Source: Paenibacillus sp. Root52 (GTDB lineage: Bacteria; Bacillota; Bacilli; Paenibacillales; Paenibacillaceae). Taken from it: DNA of 64,000 bases. Below, one piece after another: positions 32,783 to 45,876 of this stretch. The notes beneath the pieces are model-generated. The model did no database searches and was not told the DNA's origin. It saw nothing but the letters and a program-made list of their open reading frames with translations. Made by a program: the position numbers and the translations under genes. The stretch is taken from contig NZ_LMFO01000001.1 of NCBI RefSeq assembly GCF_001426865.1, positions 372,001-436,000 on the forward strand, given 5' to 3'. How positions within the stretch are numbered: the stretch's first letter is position 1; each line of letters starts with the position of its first letter.

Positions 32783-32868
32783 CCTTGATTTAAGTAGCTA
32801 AAGGTATGATGATTGATTCACTTGTTCTTACTTTTTTTGTTATTTACATCATTCGGGGGAGATTGGTT

Positions 32869-33519
32869 ATGCGGAAGCTACGTTGGGAAGTTGTTATGGG
32901 AATCATCGTTTTTTTCTTTGTCTTTTTCATGGCATGGAATGATTATTCCACAGTATTAACGATAATTGTTGTCTTCACAGCCACACTTATTGCGTTTCTA
33001 AGTTTCACAATATATCCGTCAGTGTTCGATAAGAACATAGATCGGATTGACTCTTTTTTACGTAAGCAGAAAAAGACACCTGGGCTGTACATCAATTATG
33101 TTCTAGCGAATAAGCTGGATGACGAAGCAGAGGTTGTTATGGAGCAAGTATTGCTCAAATACAAACAGAAAGCAGCACAGTCATCCTTCAAGGCAGCGTA
33201 TGGAATCTATAACAAGGACATGAATGCTATTCGGGAATCTATCCCACATATTCGTGAATCAGATTACCAGGCATATTATGAAACGTATCTTCTGATGGAG
33301 GAGGGCAATAGCGAGCAAGCACGAGAACGACTGAAGTCTATTAAGAAACATTGGATGAGGTCTGCGCTGCTAGGAGGAATAGAACTCAAAGCGGGTCGAC
33401 GAGATCTTGCCATACAGCTTGCGAAGGAAGCCCTTGATGTCTCTAAAGGAGTTCATCATTATGTGCTCTATAAAGAATACGAAAGGTTATATCCAGAAGT
33501 TGTTAAGACTGTATCATAG
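32869..33519 (+). CDS. Hypothetical membrane protein with TPR-like cytoplasmic part
   Basis: Unrecognised protein. Two hydrophobic helices at about residues 10-28 and 33-51 are followed by a ~165-residue helical region. That region's rhythm (AEVVMEQVLLKYKQKAAQSS, NSEQARERLKSI, RRDLAIQLAKEALD) resembles tetratricopeptide-like repeats, which mediate protein contacts. The chosen ATG at 32869 has GGGGGAG 8 nt upstream. An ATG at 32806 is also in frame and would add a third hydrophobic segment. It stands alone behind a hairpin-rich leader. Confidence 0.7.
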   Translation: MRKLRWEVVMGIIVFFFVFFMAWNDYSTVLTIIVVFTATLIAFLSFTIYPSVFDKNIDRIDSFLRKQKKTPGLYINYVLANKLDDEAEVVMEQVLLKYKQKAAQSSFKAAYGIYNKDMNAIRESIPHIRESDYQAYYETYLLMEEGNSEQARERLKSIKKHWMRSALLGGIELKAGRRDLAIQLAKEALDVSKGVHHYVLYKEYERLYPEVVKTVS

Positions 33520-33556
33520 GCACGACATTTAAGTACTGAAAGTAGCGTGATCCCTT

Positions 33557-34426
33557 ATGAATATAGAGCAGATTATGCAAGAATTAGTAGATCATAAAGT
33601 GTTAAACTCTATCGCTATTCCAGCCAAACCATTGAGTGGAGGCACAGTGAGTAAGCTATATCTTATAGAACGCACAGATGGTAATCCATATGTCGTGAAA
33701 ATAAATGAGCCTCAAGTGGTTAAGTCTGAATCGATCTACCTAAAACATTATCAAACATCAAACTTACTCCCGAAGCTTATATTTTTAGAACCCTCAAATA
33801 CGTATCTCGTGTACTCTTTTATCACCGGTTCAACGGATTATCCTGATGGGAATAAAAGAGAAATATTGCATATGCTTATTCATGGACTAATTAATAATTA
33901 TAAGCAGGTAAGCGCTCAACAAGGTTGGGGATGGGTGGATCAACCGAGTAAATCATGGCGTGATTTCCTGGAAGATGAACGCTCTGCGAAATCTATAATG
34001 ATCGGTGTGCACTTAGCTGATGAAGATCATGAACTTGTATGTAATCTGGTACAAAACATGGAGGAAGAGCAGGAAGCATTTTTATTACATGGGGATTGTG
34101 GCGTACATAATTTTATATTTGAGGACGGACAATTAAAGGGTGTGATTGACCCTACACCTGTCATTGGAGATCCCTTGTATGATGTAATTTATGCATTTTG
34201 TTCATCTCCAGATGATCTAACGATAGAAACATTCCATTTAATCTTAGATCAGGTTGGCTTCAAGGGGGAGGCATCCGTATCGACGATCTACGAGAAAGTT
34301 CTCATCGGCTTATACCTGAGAATTGGAACTGCCATCAAGCATCATCCGAGCGATCTGGATTCATATCTGCTATCTTGGCAGTATTGGAGGGCAATTGTAA
34401 TCCAGTGTAAGAATAAGGGGGCTTAG
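33557..34426 (+). CDS. APH-type phosphotransferase (second copy)
   Basis: Small-molecule kinase of the aminoglycoside phosphotransferase superfamily. The catalytic loop reads LLHGDCGVHNFIFEDG (Asp, Asn) and the metal-binding site is GVIDPTPVIGDPLYD. The substrate is unknown. It is not close to the other kinase in this window beyond the family motifs. No strong ribosome site is visible before the ATG. The next gene starts 4 nt after its stop, so the two are co-transcribed. Confidence 0.82.
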   Translation: MNIEQIMQELVDHKVLNSIAIPAKPLSGGTVSKLYLIERTDGNPYVVKINEPQVVKSESIYLKHYQTSNLLPKLIFLEPSNTYLVYSFITGSTDYPDGNKREILHMLIHGLINNYKQVSAQQGWGWVDQPSKSWRDFLEDERSAKSIMIGVHLADEDHELVCNLVQNMEEEQEAFLLHGDCGVHNFIFEDGQLKGVIDPTPVIGDPLYDVIYAFCSSPDDLTIETFHLILDQVGFKGEASVSTIYEKVLIGLYLRIGTAIKHHPSDLDSYLLSWQYWRAIVIQCKNKGA

Positions 34427-34430
34427 AGTC

Positions 34431-34799
34431 ATGATCAAGTTGACTAGAGATGGGAAATACGGCTTGACGATTCGATTCGATCTACATGGTGTTAATGATC
34501 TTATTGAAGCGTTTCAGAATGCACTAAATGGCGCTCAGGGCAACATTGAACTAGACGAACCAGCCATGGTTGGAAATAAGAAAATTAAGAAGCTGGCCTT
34601 CTCCTGTAACAATGAACTGGATCAACTAAGCTATGATGTATCTAGCCTTATTTTTGAATTGGAAGATGAAGTTTTAGAATATAATTTGGGCAGATTAGGA
34701 GAGTGTATTGAAAGTCTACAATTTGCTCCTGCTGAACTCTGTGAAGTGCGCTTTGGCAAGATCAATATGACGATTTACGGTATTTTGGAAAACTCTTAA
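34431..34799 (+). CDS. Hypothetical protein, 122 residues
   Basis: I do not recognise this family. It is a compact soluble protein without membrane segments or cysteine motifs. It has an N-terminal predicted beta strand (YGLTIRFDLHG), a helix (VNDLIEAFQNALNG), then alternating strands, and an acidic middle (SSLIFELEDEVLEYNLGRLG). AAGGGGG lies before the ATG, inside the end of the kinase gene. The tight 4-nt spacing suggests a partner or modulator of that kinase; this is inferred from context only. Confidence 0.65.
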   Translation: MIKLTRDGKYGLTIRFDLHGVNDLIEAFQNALNGAQGNIELDEPAMVGNKKIKKLAFSCNNELDQLSYDVSSLIFELEDEVLEYNLGRLGECIESLQFAPAELCEVRFGKINMTIYGILENS

Positions 34800-34932
34800 T
34801 TTGACATATAGTCAAATTTCAAAAAACACCCGCCATGCCGGTTAAAGATAAATGACTTATATTTAATTTATATATTTGTTGCGTATCTCTAATTTGTTAT
34901 GAACAAAAAATTCAATAAAGGAGTACTTTTAT

Positions 34933-36120
34933 ATGACAATACCAGATTTCACGAATAGGGGCAATCTACCAGAAGGGGTGCACAAATGTAATGGAGTAGA
35001 ATTCATTGATAAGTTTTGTAATAGTAAAGAGAGAGAGTCTTATAAAAAAGCGATTACAGATTTATTTGATTTTGCGGCACAGACAAATGCAGTTTATGTT
35101 TTTGTAGGAGGATCTTTTGTCGCGTCAACAGATATGCCTCATGATATCGATTGTCTAATGGTATATGAAGAAGACGCATATGTACCAAAGAATATTGAAA
35201 AGATTAAATTGGGAAATATTAGACTAGATGTGATGTTTGCTTCATTAGATCACATGCATATAGTACATGCGTTTATACACTTACTAAGTAGAAATAAAGT
35301 TGGTGCAAAAGTTGGATTAATTGAAGTTGATCTTTTCGATGAAAATGAAGAGTGGCAAATCGTCCAACCAGGTATTGAGGAGTATGAGATCGTGAAAAGA
35401 GCATACATAAATAGAGAAGTTGTAGACATTTCGCCTATCAAAGGAATAATAGTTACTATACATGGCTTATACTCACACGCTGTGTGGAATCAACAGATTG
35501 CTCCAATTGTAAGTAGTAGAGGCTGGATTTTTGCTCCTTATTTATATGATTATCAAAATTTTGTTTTGTTATTTAAGCAAGGAAAACGTAAAAAGATCGT
35601 AGAGGACTTTAGAGAGTGGATATACAATTTGTGGAGTAAGTATGATAATCAGCAAATATCAGTCATTGCACATTCTTTTGGGACGTATATTTTAGCAGCA
35701 TATCTGGATGGTTTTGACAGACCACCAGTAGGGTTCAATTCGATAGTTCTTACTGGAAGTATCATTAATACAAATTTTGATTGGCAGAAAAATATCATTA
35801 AGAAAGGTGCCGTGGCACGAATTCATAATGAAATTGCCACAAATGATGAATTTGTAAGATATATGCCTGACAAAGATTTCAAAAAGTTTTTTGGAATAGA
35901 TCCCTTGATGGGAGATTCAGGTGTGAAAGGATTTAGTACTAAACTTGATGGATTACTTACTCAATCTAACAGCAGTATCTTTGATCACAATAACGTAATA
36001 AAAACTGATGTAATTGAACAGAAGTGGATGCCTTTTTTTGAAGCGAACAAGAATGCTGCGAACGAGTTGTTAGCAGAATTAATAAATTATTCATTGAAAG
36101 CAAGAAAAAATGATTCTTGA
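34933..36120 (+). CDS. Nucleotidyltransferase-fold / alpha-beta serine hydrolase fusion
   Basis: Two-domain protein with no obvious housekeeping role. Residues 1-160 look like a minimal DNA-polymerase-beta-type nucleotidyltransferase: GGSFVAS at 59-65, Asp71 and Asp73 in PHDIDC, and Asp99 in IRLDVMF form the expected triad. The opening (GNLPEGVHKCNGVEF) resembles the family I recall as DUF6932. Residues 170-390 form an alpha/beta hydrolase: oxyanion segment TIHGLYSH, nucleophile Ser248 in AHSFG, and candidate acid and base Asp305 and His352. The gene is visibly more AT-rich than its neighbours, suggesting transfer. GGAG precedes the ATG. Function is unknown; a defence or toxin role is speculative. 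Confidence 0.75.
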   Translation: MTIPDFTNRGNLPEGVHKCNGVEFIDKFCNSKERESYKKAITDLFDFAAQTNAVYVFVGGSFVASTDMPHDIDCLMVYEEDAYVPKNIEKIKLGNIRLDVMFASLDHMHIVHAFIHLLSRNKVGAKVGLIEVDLFDENEEWQIVQPGIEEYEIVKRAYINREVVDISPIKGIIVTIHGLYSHAVWNQQIAPIVSSRGWIFAPYLYDYQNFVLLFKQGKRKKIVEDFREWIYNLWSKYDNQQISVIAHSFGTYILAAYLDGFDRPPVGFNSIVLTGSIINTNFDWQKNIIKKGAVARIHNEIATNDEFVRYMPDKDFKKFFGIDPLMGDSGVKGFSTKLDGLLTQSNSSIFDHNNVIKTDVIEQKWMPFFEANKNAANELLAELINYSLKARKNDS

Positions 36121-36279
36121 ATATTCCATTATACAATAATGTTTTCTCTTCGAAACATGCCATTAATACAGCTAATTAAGTCTTAGTATAGAAAGGCGAT
36201 GAGATCTTATTTATTCACTTTTTTAGAGTACTCTATTTTCAAAAAAAGTGAGTGAATTAATTAATGGATAATAATGACA

Positions 36280-36308
36280 TTGACATCTTCGACGTTTTCC
36301 AAAATAAT
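36280..36308 (+). promoter_or_regulatory. Sigma-A promoter of the codBA leader
   Basis: TTGACA and AATAAT are separated by exactly 17 bp. Transcription would start near 36315, leaving a leader of about 215 nt before codB. Confidence 0.8.
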
Positions 36309-36332
36309 AGAGTTTAATTGAATACTGGTACC

Positions 36333-36488
36333 TTTAATTCAGTCCAGAGAGGCTGGCAAGGGCAGCGGATTTTATAATCACGCAGGAATCGGGGCATATC
36401 CATCAGGGATGCTCTGCGTCTTCGCGCGGATTGTAATGCAAGAAGAGGCTACTTGTCAGTGTATAACTTGACGAGTAGCCTCTTTTTT
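36333..36488 (+). promoter_or_regulatory. PyrR-binding pyrimidine attenuator leader
   Basis: The segment 36338-36362 carries the PyrR anti-antiterminator core (AGTCCAGAGAGGCTGGCAAG), as known from Bacillus pyr leaders. It ends in a strong terminator at 36445-36488: a 14-bp stem (GAGGCTACTTGTCA against TGACGAGTAGCCTC) and six T residues. By established pyr biology, UMP-loaded PyrR bound to this RNA would favour termination, so codBA should be off when uridine nucleotides are plentiful. This covers the non-coding stretch 36121-36532 together with the promoter. Confidence 0.9.
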
Positions 36489-36532
36489 CTGCTTTTTTAT
36501 GGTATCAGAACACTTTATTTGGAGGTATTCTG

Positions 36533-37810
36533 ATGAGCAAACAAGATCAAGAATTTTCATGGCAAGAGGTACCAAAGGCACAACGAAACCATTTTTGGAA
36601 GACGTTATCCGTTATGCTTGGGTTCACATTTTTCTCAGCAAGTATGTTGGCAGGGGGAACACTGGGCGTCAGTCTGACATTCATGGAATTCATCGGCATT
36701 GTACTCGCGGGTAACCTAGTGCTCGGTATCTACACAGGAGCGTTGGCACATATCGCTGCCAAGACAGGATTGTCCACGCACTTACTTGCAAAATATGCGT
36801 TTGGTGCGAAAGGGTCGTATCTTCCATCATTCTTGCTAGGCTTTACACAGGTTGGATGGTTCGGTGTCGGCGTAGCGATGTTTGCCATCCCGGTCGCTAA
36901 AGCGATGGACTGGAACGTATATCTGTTGATCATTGTGTTTGGTCTTGCGATGACCGCATCCGCTATTTACGGTATGAAGTCATTGATCATTCTTGGTTAT
37001 ATTGCAGTTCCCGCAATTGCTATTCTGGGTAGCTACTCCATGTTTGAAGGAGCTAACACGCTAGGCGGTTTGCAGGGATTACTTGACTACACACCAACAC
37101 AGACGCTTACTGCGGCGGCAGCATTGACGATCTGCATTGGCTCATTTATTAGCGGTGGAACACTAACGCCCGATTTTGCTCGATTCTCCCGTACTTCCAA
37201 ACAAGCGGTTACGGCGACAGTTATTGCATTCTTCTTGGGGAATTCACTCATGTTTCTATTTGGTGCTGTAGGAGCGATGGCTTATAATCTAGCAGATATC
37301 TCAGAAGTTATGTTCCTGCAAGGACTGATCATCCCAGCAATTATCGTTCTGGGGCTGAATATCTGGACGACTAATGATAATGCGCTATATGCTTCTGGGC
37401 TCGGGTTTGCCAACATCACCAAAATATCGAAGAAATTCTTCGTGATCGTAAATGGTATCGTAGGTACAGTGTTTGCCATGTGGATGTATAACAACTTCGT
37501 TGGTTTCCTGAATGTGCTGGGTGCAGCTGTTCCATCGATTGGAGCCATTATTATTGCAGATTACTTTATTGTGAAACGCAGATCGTATAAGCCTTTTGCT
37601 GAAATGAACTTCAAAAATGTAAACTGGATAGCGATGATTGCTTGGGCCATCGGCGTTGCATTTGCTCAGCTTGCACCAGGGGTAACACCACTTAACGCAT
37701 TACTCGGAACAGCGGTAGCTTATGTCTTGCTCATGATGATTGTTCCAGCAAAAGAAAATAAAGAAAAGAGGAATTTACATGATTATACAGAACGCAAAAT
37801 TGCGGGGTAA
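36533..37810 (+). CDS. codB: Cytosine permease
   Basis: NCS1-family proton symporter that imports cytosine for salvage. About 12 membrane segments are visible in 425 residues. Family features include [15 protein letters not shown] at the N terminus, [14 protein letters not shown], and [23 protein letters not shown] precedes the ATG. It overlaps codA by 32 nt in another frame, so the two are translated from one message, under the PyrR leader upstream. Confidence 0.95.
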
Positions 37811-39047
37811 AGAAGGCTTTTGGAATATTGTAGTAAAAGACGGAAAGTTTGTGCAGATCACAGAAACGCTGGAGACGACAGCTAATGACGAAGTCATTAA
37901 TGTCAACGGCTCACTTGTACTGCCACCATTTATTGAACCACATATCCATCTGGATACAACACTTACGGCAGGGGAGCCAGAGTGGAATCTAAGCGGGACG
38001 CTGTTCGAAGGGATTCAACGTTGGTCTGAGCGCAAGGCGTTCTTAACTCATGAGGATGTCAAAACCCGTTCCAAAACAGCATTGAAATGGCAACTGGCTC
38101 AAGGCATCCAGCATGTGCGGACACATGTCGATGTGACTGATCCAAGCTTGATTGCAGTAAAAGCGATGCTCGAAGTAAAAGAAGAAATGGCTCCATATAT
38201 GGACATCCAGCTTGTTGCTTTCCCGCAGGAAGGTATTCACTCGTATCCAAACGGCGTGGAATTGCTGGAAGAGTCACTCAAAATGGGCGTTGATGTGGTT
38301 GGTGGTATTCCGCACTTTGAATTCACACGTGAATATGGCGTTGATTCCATGAAAGTTGCGTTTGATCTTGCTGAGAAATATGACCGACTGATCGATATTC
38401 ACTGTGATGAGATCGATGATGAGCAATCTCGATTCATAGAGGTTGTTGCGAAGGAAGCTTACGAACGAGGACTAGGCTCCCGAACTACGGCTAGCCACAC
38501 AACCGCGATGGGGTCATATAATGATGCTTATACGTATAAATTGTTCCGCCTATTGAAGATGGCTGATCTGAACTTTGTGTCTAACCCACTCGTTAACATT
38601 CACTTGCAAGGACGCTTTGACACGTATCCGAAGAGAAGAGGACTGACTCGGGTGAAGGAGCTTCAGGAAGCGGGCTTGAATGTATGTTTCGGTCATGATG
38701 ATATCTTCGACCCGTGGTACCCGCTTGGTACAGGCAACATGCTTCAGGTGCTGCATATGGGTATTCATGCTTCACAATTGCTCGGTTATGACCAGATCGT
38801 GAATTCAATCGATCTTATTACTAGCAATAGTGCAAGAACGCTGCACATTGAGGATGTATACGGTATTGAGGAAGGTAAACCTGCCAACTTCATCGTGCTT
38901 GAAGCAGAGAATGAATATGAAGCCATTCGCAAACAAGCTGGTGTGCTGTATTCCTTCAGAAATGGTCGTAAAATCGCAGAGACGAAGCCGCGGGAAACGT
39001 CCATTCTATTGGATGGTGGTTCGGAAAAGGTTACGTTCAACAAATAA
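37779..39047 (+). CDS. codA: Cytosine deaminase
   Basis: Zinc or iron amidohydrolase converting cytosine to uracil plus ammonia in the cytoplasm. Metal ligands are visible: [30 protein letters not shown] and the Asp in [19 protein letters not shown]. Length (422 residues) matches the E. coli enzyme. The start is the ATG after AGAGGAATTTAC, within the 3' end of codB; the open frame begins earlier at 37740. With CodB it forms a complete cytosine-to-uracil salvage route. Confidence 0.95.
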
Positions 39048-45447: not shown

Positions 45448-45604
45448 CGATTTCACTCCAAACTGGAGAATTTTTTTGTAGTATTCCCCAGTCGAGTTGT
45501 TTTATGTAAATATAAGTTTAGTGATATGATGGGTCATTTACCCTATATTTAGATGCTTGATTTTTGACTGAGATTCGGATAATATGTATTTTAATTTAGA
45601 ATAG

Positions 45605-45876
45605 TTAGCAATGAATGGAAAGAGTAGTTGTATTGAATCGTCCAAGCGAGCCGGCGAATGGTGAGAGGTCCGGTACGAGAAGTGCAACGAATGGGTCCAT
45701 TCGCTTCAATCCGAACTTCGCATAGCGAATAGTAGGCGTTGACGGCATCCCTCCGTTATCCATGGGAACCCTGTTAGTCGTTTTGACAGGTGTGAGTGCA
45801 GCCATAGGCTGAATTCGGGTGGTATCGCGGAGTCTAACACTTCGTCCCTTTTAAGGGATGGAGTGTTTTTTGTTTT
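45605..45876 (+). promoter_or_regulatory. T-box leader of trpS
   Basis: Uncharged-tRNA-sensing leader. The T-box core reads GGGTGGTATCGCGG at 45817-45830, just before a terminator at 45836-45876 (AACACT and GTCCCTT pairing with AAGGGAT and AGTGTT, then six T). Upstream, GGTGAGAGGTC and GTAGGCGTTGACGG match stem I landmarks. A TGG at 45692-45694, in CGAATGGGTCC, is a candidate tryptophan specifier, though its placement is my judgement. Uncharged tRNA-Trp would pair and allow read-through into trpS. Confidence 0.92.

Follow-up and report, generated by a model that had tools for sequence, protein, structure and literature searches.

A predicted nucleotidyltransferase fused to a predicted serine hydrolase is the sole cargo of an insertion in Paenibacillus sp. 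Root52

What could be the task of a protein that joins a nucleotidyltransferase-like domain to an alpha/beta hydrolase, and which of its halves acts on the other? The gene that raises this question lies in a window of 64,000 nucleotides from Paenibacillus sp. Root52, the window being the whole stretch of DNA that was analysed. The fusion is a small, rare and mobile protein in which a putative switch by nucleotide transfer is combined with a likely effector, and its natural variants tell which half does what.

The fusion gene and its insertion site

The gene spans positions 34933..36120 on the forward strand, as do all features of the gene described below, and encodes 395 amino acids from an ATG start (open reading frame list and Pfam). 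Pfam assigned residues 4-133 (34942..35331) to DUF6932 (PF22014, E = 3.5e-19, 70.1 bits against a cut-off of 27), which it holds as a family of unknown function. Residues 168-326 matched Hydrolase_4 (PF12146, E = 3e-7, 30.4 bits against a cut-off of 27), and with its conserved core the alpha/beta hydrolase domain covers approximately residues 168-375 (35434..36057). The NCBIfam search of the protein gave no match. Both Pfam scores bear out the fusion of a nucleotidyltransferase (NTase) and a hydrolase that an initial annotation had read from the letters. The two-domain reading frame is not a chance product, because a further 23 sequences, including a truncated one, have the same order of domains.

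We aligned all 24 fusions and distinguished 18 intact sequences, three with a dead hydrolase, two with an additional TIR domain and the truncated one. A second alignment held 17 DUF6932 rows (16 distinct), with the TIR-fused copies left out. Gly60-Ser61 (35110..35115) belong to a GS-x9-DxD motif whose spacing is kept in 22 of the 24 fusions, the motif being broken in the two TIR rows. Asp71-x-Asp73 (35143..35151) are the predicted metal ligands; GS and DxD are invariant in 17/17 DUF6932 rows and the two Asp are absent from both TIR-fused copies. The third acidic residue, Asp99 (35227..35229), is kept in 23/24 fusions. A Klebsiella allele from outside the alignment (L011) has GDS in place of GGS, an intact hydrolase and no TIR domain. 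NTP_transf_2 (PF01909) matched 6 of the 17 DUF6932 members at E ≤ 1 with a best value of 2.5e-4, the window protein itself giving a weak 0.081, below the cut-off. When DUF6932 was compared by hhalign to single NTases of the same genome, together with an unrelated control, the matches were weak; a profile of four of these NTases did better (P = 3.5e-4) and had the motif in register. A PDB search with the profile of the 24 fusions gave no credible match; its best hit (E = 0.54) was an unrelated chain. By its conserved GS, DxD and third Asp the DUF6932 half is thus predicted to be a Pol-beta-type nucleotidyltransferase.

The C-terminal half is predicted to be a serine alpha/beta hydrolase. Its alignment yields Ser248 (35674..35676, within AHSFG at residues 246-250) as predicted nucleophile, Asp305 (35845..35847) as predicted catalytic acid and His352 (35986..35988) as predicted catalytic histidine, and this triad is kept in 20 of the 23 full-length fusions. 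His177-Gly178 (35461..35466) are a probable oxyanion-hole HG motif, judged by conservation within the groups of rows. The linker carries a Tyr158-x-x-Arg161 motif (35404..35415), which its conservation pattern marks as a candidate modification site or as part of the NTase active site. At least 17 of the 18 intact rows share each of the NTase and hydrolase residues. GGS with Gly60-Ser61, Asp71, Asp73, Asp99 and AHSFG all lie where the initial annotation had placed them.

An insertion of 1,459 bp (34799..36257), delimited by blastn, junctions, empty sites and composition, carries this gene and no other. When positions 32800-38000 were searched with blastn, the segments 32800-34798 and 36258-38000 aligned to G112 (same species) and G142 (same genus), the two genomes with both flanks aligned, and each of these has 48 bp where the window has the insertion. 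In six more genomes of the genus (L019-L024; G126 also as L034) the alignment covers the codB side and, upstream, at most a gene further away. The insertion has a G+C content of 0.323 compared to 0.432 for the window. Among the 39 open reading frames of at least 250 amino acids in the window the coding sequence has the lowest G+C content and the third most distant codon usage. The AT-rich pocket and the isolated single-gene position of the earlier description are therefore real, and the site is empty in both relatives with both flanks. An imperfect inverted repeat with 19-nt arms (84% complementary) forms the 3' end of the insertion (36209..36257) and is possibly a terminator; the terminator scan made no call there.

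codB and codA, recognised by eye only, follow downstream, the codB-like gene starting ~0.4 kb after the fusion gene. A functional linkage to codBA was rejected because the fusion gene was inserted at that place. By eye, the leader before codB (36320-36490) resembles a PyrR-type element whose terminator hairpin lies at 36440-36487; Rfam made no call on it at the gathering threshold. A T-box leader lies at 45602-45852 of the window (RF00230, 106 bits).

Distribution and neighbouring genes

The architecture is rare yet widely scattered. The 23 aligned relatives are 26-50% identical and come from six phyla, plasmids and viral contigs. In the own family 8 of 394 genomes gave a match and 6 of these have the fusion; in a sample of Bacilli the figure was 14/398, the own genome alone at full length. 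Seven of 72,556 plasmid records matched at a coverage of at least 80% (Aliarcobacter, Klebsiella, Pantoea), and three IMG/VR contigs carry the fusion. It also occurs in Hymenobacter and other Bacteroidota, Chlorobaculum, Arcobacter, Geomonas, Rahnella, Pseudogemmobacter, Evansella, Natronobacillus and others. Identities of 43-50% over the length were found in Bacteroidota, Chlorobiota, Campylobacterota, Thermodesulfobacteriota and plasmids of Pseudomonadota. Two queries of phage records returned no fusion, and nothing turned up when viral and genome contigs were scanned with the single sequence. In E. coli 54-bp pieces were found in 3 of 5,426 genomes and no fusion, and the 249, 295, 295 and 274 genomes around four other hosts held partial matches only, besides the centre genomes.

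In the tree of the hydrolase domain 23 fusions stand on one side of a branch with 100/98 support and 20 hydrolase-only relatives on the other, which is consistent with a fusion that arose once and spread afterwards. The fusion tree departs from the host phyla: the copy on an Aliarcobacter plasmid groups with Bacteroidota, the Arcobacter copy does not. Homologs of 43-50% identity exist in distant phyla, yet only 6 of 394 genomes of the own family have the fusion, which speaks for horizontal spread. An IS21-like element, identified by eye and from its resemblance to genes annotated as IS21 in L009, interrupts the Rahnella copy (L042 9992-12795, L113).

The initial annotation had suggested a role in defence and a check for defence genes beside homologs. 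No defence system was recognised in the neighbourhood of the window gene itself. Several relatives do adjoin such systems according to PADLOC models: the Rahnella copy lies next to GajA (6.7e-243) and GajB (3.9e-189) of Gabija, a Klebsiella copy next to OloA and OloB of Olokun, and the proteins of the Gabija/Olokun region are shared between the two islands at ~89-93% identity. The Hymenobacter copy adjoins PD-Lambda-5 A and B, a Flavobacteriales copy (L038) has TIR-PNTD and pAgo ~80 bp upstream, and the Pseudogemmobacter copy has PD-T7-1 ~15 bp downstream. SoFic (4e-28) lies ~1 kb from the Geomonas copy and an E1-E2/JAB set ~8 kb from the Aliarcobacter copy. The latter set (L009 21036-24161, on a plasmid) stands beside a gene for a zinc-dependent phospholipase C and is perhaps a ubiquitin-like or CBASS-related defence operon. 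In total a recognised defence gene was found within ~6 kb at 6 of 24 loci, or 5 if the shared Klebsiella/Rahnella island is counted once; the scan left out L012, L036, L041, L043, L049 and L068-L070 and covered some others in part.

The matched control consisted of 22 regions, each 13 kb long and placed at a fixed offset on one of the 11 contigs that carry the fusions (208 open reading frames); we compared them at a threshold of 1e-20 to the 105 open reading frames around 11 fusions. The frames around the fusions matched 37 PADLOC families, of which 25 were listed, and the two halves of the control 6 and 26, with 25 of the 26 listed. The matches listed include DrmD for the former and RT_UG29, PsyrA, MzaA and SngC for the control. 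Many control matches resemble housekeeping relatives, and one control region holds RecQ and a DnaG-like gene together, a pair that probably explains the DpdF, PsyrT and DnaG-type matches. On these 11 contigs the control thus establishes no enrichment of defence genes near the fusions. We dropped enrichment as an argument as the control matches were numerous, and the adjacencies stand as single facts. An immune or toxin-antitoxin role is plausible by the patchy spread and by the neighbours of some relatives.

We also searched for recurring partners among 381 mechanically called open reading frames at 25 loci. Conserved synteny with a housekeeping pathway, named earlier as an argument against a defence module, did not appear, as no housekeeping or metabolic partner stood out. 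What recurred was the Klebsiella/Rahnella island and a ~215-aa membrane protein of the dead-hydrolase clade; the other repeats were paralogs (transporter ATPases, kinase-like proteins and insertion-element genes).

Reciprocal loss of the two active sites

The variants of the fusion fall into two groups that have lost opposite active sites. In three rows (Fontibacillus, Saccharibacillus and D16-56) the whole hydrolase triad is gone. Two rows (Evansella and Natronobacillus) have an N-terminal TIR domain (TIR_2, 4e-10 and 2.8e-15). We compared both groups across 64 conserved positions, those at which 17 or all of the 18 intact rows agree. The dead-hydrolase rows lack His177, Gly178, Ser248, Asp305 and His352 and retain Ser61, Asp71, Asp73, Asp99, Tyr158 and Arg161. 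They have lost another 13 positions as well, and three of these, Pro13, Gly59 and Pro85, belong to the NTase domain. The TIR rows retain His177, Gly178, Ser248, Asp305 and His352, and the positions lost in both of them are Cys29, Asp71, Asp73, Tyr158 and Arg161 only. Tyr158 is present in all intact and dead-hydrolase rows and Arg161 in all but L041. Because both linker residues follow the fate of the NTase although they lie outside DUF6932, they probably belong to the NTase function, as acceptor or as part of the active site. In L046, one of the TIR-fused copies, their loss falls within a deletion and may reflect linker remodelling; the DUF6932 match of this copy is 19.0 bits, below the cut-off of 27.

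The same pattern is visible in the sequence identities. The identity of the NTase minus that of the hydrolase ranged from -0.209 to 0.051 across the 153 intact pairs; the three dead-hydrolase pairs gave values of +0.157 to +0.260, and the TIR pair gave -0.411. Both groups thus lie beyond all 153 intact pairs, in opposite directions. Each group forms one supported clade and so represents one loss event; judged from the alignments the reciprocal loss amounts to two events in five sequences.

At all three dead-hydrolase loci a gene for a related protein of 214-216 amino acids with two N-terminal hydrophobic segments lies 10-12 bp upstream. Between Fontibacillus and Saccharibacillus pn/ps was 0.07 for the NTase and 0.28 for the inactive hydrolase, with synonymous sites near saturation, and the inactive domain looks still constrained. 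In L046 the similarity of the TIR domain to bacterial TIR NADases is confined to residues 7-63, and the catalytic glutamate of these enzymes lies beyond that region. By eye this glutamate seems to be missing from the TIR domains of both L046 and L043; the PDB search with the TIR region of L043 gave no credible match.

The initial annotation had imagined one domain making or transferring a nucleotide and the other as the effector. A nucleotide messenger between the domains found no support. The pattern of reciprocal loss is better matched by an NTase that serves as regulator or input and a hydrolase that serves as output. Read most simply, the variants have a regulatory or input slot, filled by NTase or TIR, and an output slot, filled by hydrolase or membrane protein.

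Possible mechanisms and related systems

Our preferred reading, held tentatively and at less than even confidence, is that the gene is a mobile one-gene module of the toxin-antitoxin or abortive-infection type, likely directed against phages, in which the NTase restrains the hydrolase effector via the linker. In the uninfected cell the fused DUF6932 NTase would hold the hydrolase off, plausibly by nucleotidylation of the linker in cis at or near Tyr158/Arg161, by analogy to MntA acting on HepT. Infection would relieve this restraint, and the freed hydrolase, perhaps acting on a lipid or other acyl ester, would harm the cell before phage release. We infer that the hydrolase is the effector, and we infer likewise the nucleotidyl transfer, its site, the trigger and the role in defence. 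Several observations weigh against this reading: each reciprocal loss is a single event, the dead-hydrolase rows have also lost three conserved residues of the NTase domain, the Klebsiella allele L011 has GDS, the six hydrolase-alone relatives scanned have no PADLOC match, and loss of PDC-M63AB left phage sensitivity unchanged in one native host. If this is right, the protein offers a compact model for the post-translational control of an immune effector in cis and Tyr158 is singled out. A wider version, which we consider somewhat unlikely, makes the protein an immune module of a novel single-protein class with two exchangeable slots: an input (a self-nucleotidylating DUF6932 with its Tyr158-x-x-Arg161 linker, or a TIR domain) would control an output (the serine hydrolase or a two-segment membrane protein), and a catalytic site would be given up once a substitute is acquired. 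If true, the family documents the exchange of sensors and effectors in immune proteins.

The NTase could instead be the toxin and nucleotidylate a target of the host or the phage, for instance a tRNA or a protein, with the hydrolase as second effector or release mechanism. The NTase is indeed the more conserved half in the dead-hydrolase clade (the two pn/ps values above, from two sequences), and stand-alone DUF6932 genes sit beside a gene for a PDC-M62A-type ATPase or PDC-M63B. We nevertheless regard this as unlikely, as the TIR-fused copies have kept the hydrolase without Asp71/Asp73, so that some members can do without NTase catalysis. In a CBASS-like reading the NTase would make a diffusible nucleotide, or a modified metabolite, that switches the hydrolase on. 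An NTase-type site beside an effector-like hydrolase would suit this, but PADLOC found no CD-NTase, both parts reside in one chain, and the co-variation of Tyr158/Arg161 with the NTase points to action in cis; we judge it very unlikely.

The occurrence on plasmids (7 full-length records) and as a lone insertion, the toxin-antitoxin-like logic of the fusion and the control without established enrichment would all suit a mobile selfish toxin-antitoxin or stability gene that has no part in phage defence. As the gene adjoins dedicated defence systems in several unrelated hosts we find this distinctly unlikely. Least probable in our estimate is a metabolic or accessory enzyme of nucleotide or ester metabolism that moved with islands by chance. 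Its place next to codBA (by eye) would agree with such a role and neither activity is known, but the 25 loci showed no recurring metabolic partner and the gene is missing at this site in both relatives with both flanks.

Among described systems HepT/MntA comes close to the preferred reading of an NTase that restrains a fused effector. According to the available part of PMC7641770, MntA puts three AMPs on a tyrosine of HepT, for which it needs GSX10DXD, and this AMPylation switches the effector off. The fusion shares with HepT/MntA a Pol-beta-type GS...DxD with a third Asp tied to an effector, and differs from it in being one polypeptide, in the spacing (GS-x9-DxD in 22/24 rows versus GS-x10-DxD) and in having an alpha/beta hydrolase instead of a HEPN RNase as effector. 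The RX4HXY motif is absent from all 24 fusion sequences, and Pfam gave no HEPN match at E ≤ 1 in the window protein. MNT-HEPN fusions are on record (PMC12839542, available part).

In PADLOC the window protein matched PDC-M63A only, weakly (1.9e-5, residues 24-82 of the N-terminal domain), and no CD-NTase. A stand-alone DUF6932 protein matched PDC-M63A at 9.1e-14, and such stand-alone genes adjoin a PDC-M62A-type ATPase gene or a PDC-M63B gene. At L079 (303-1764) the stand-alone DUF6932 gene overlaps a PDC-M63B gene (2.6e-24), and the two look like a PDC-M63 pair; PDC-M63AB would then presumably be a DUF6932-type pair. Unlike it, the fusion carries a hydrolase in the same chain, and no M63B partner was seen near the window gene among the matches listed (25 of 37 families in the scan at 1e-20). 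Deletion of PDC-M63AB in E. coli NILS69 gave no phage phenotype according to the available part of PMC12409345. CBASS likewise couples an NTase to a possibly lipase-like effector, but the fusion has no CD-NTase match and no separate effector gene. The short prokaryotic Argonaute with TIR (SPARTA type) is a neighbour of L038 only and shares no domains with the fusion. In the literature searched no paper names DUF6932 and nothing was found on an NTase-hydrolase fusion, though subscription work may exist. We rate the domains as known kinds and the fusion as belonging with NTase-controlled effector modules.

The preferred reading, if right, also draws attention to a subfamily of hydrolases found again in combination with different partner domains. 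None of six hydrolase-alone relatives (0/6) matched PADLOC, and we rejected them as parts of known defence systems on this account. A recurring three-gene operon (L057 8454-10708, L060 and L072-L076; Pseudomonas and viral contigs) encodes proteins of ~342-363, 128-141 and 295 amino acids, the last being a hydrolase of the subfamily with a C-terminal hydrophobic stretch. Terminase-like genes lie near it (by eye), and the three proteins of the L057 operon had no PADLOC match. L054 (10007-11819, Bradyrhizobium) and L071 (1462-3318, a viral contig) each encode a subfamily hydrolase that has a long extension at its C-terminus. Next come a small gene and one that looks by eye like a cytidine deaminase gene; the L054 proteins gave no PADLOC match. 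L055 (6629-10768) encodes a protein of 1379 amino acids with an NTPase-like N-terminus (by eye) and the subfamily hydrolase at its C-terminus, for which Pfam reported weak HEAT and hydrolase matches only and PADLOC none.

Among the hydrolase-only relatives the one from Enterobacter alone has PDC-M60 matches. PDC-M60ABC, found on Enterobacter plasmids, fuses a receiver domain to a hydrolase akin to the C-terminal half of the window protein and has a phosphorelay-like three-gene input, in contrast to the one-chain NTase of the fusion. On the Enterobacter hormaechei plasmid (L013 5531-10705) the last gene of the three-gene PDC-M60A/B/C set encodes this receiver-hydrolase fusion without DUF6932, and we take the set to resemble Detocs, with a hydrolase as effector.
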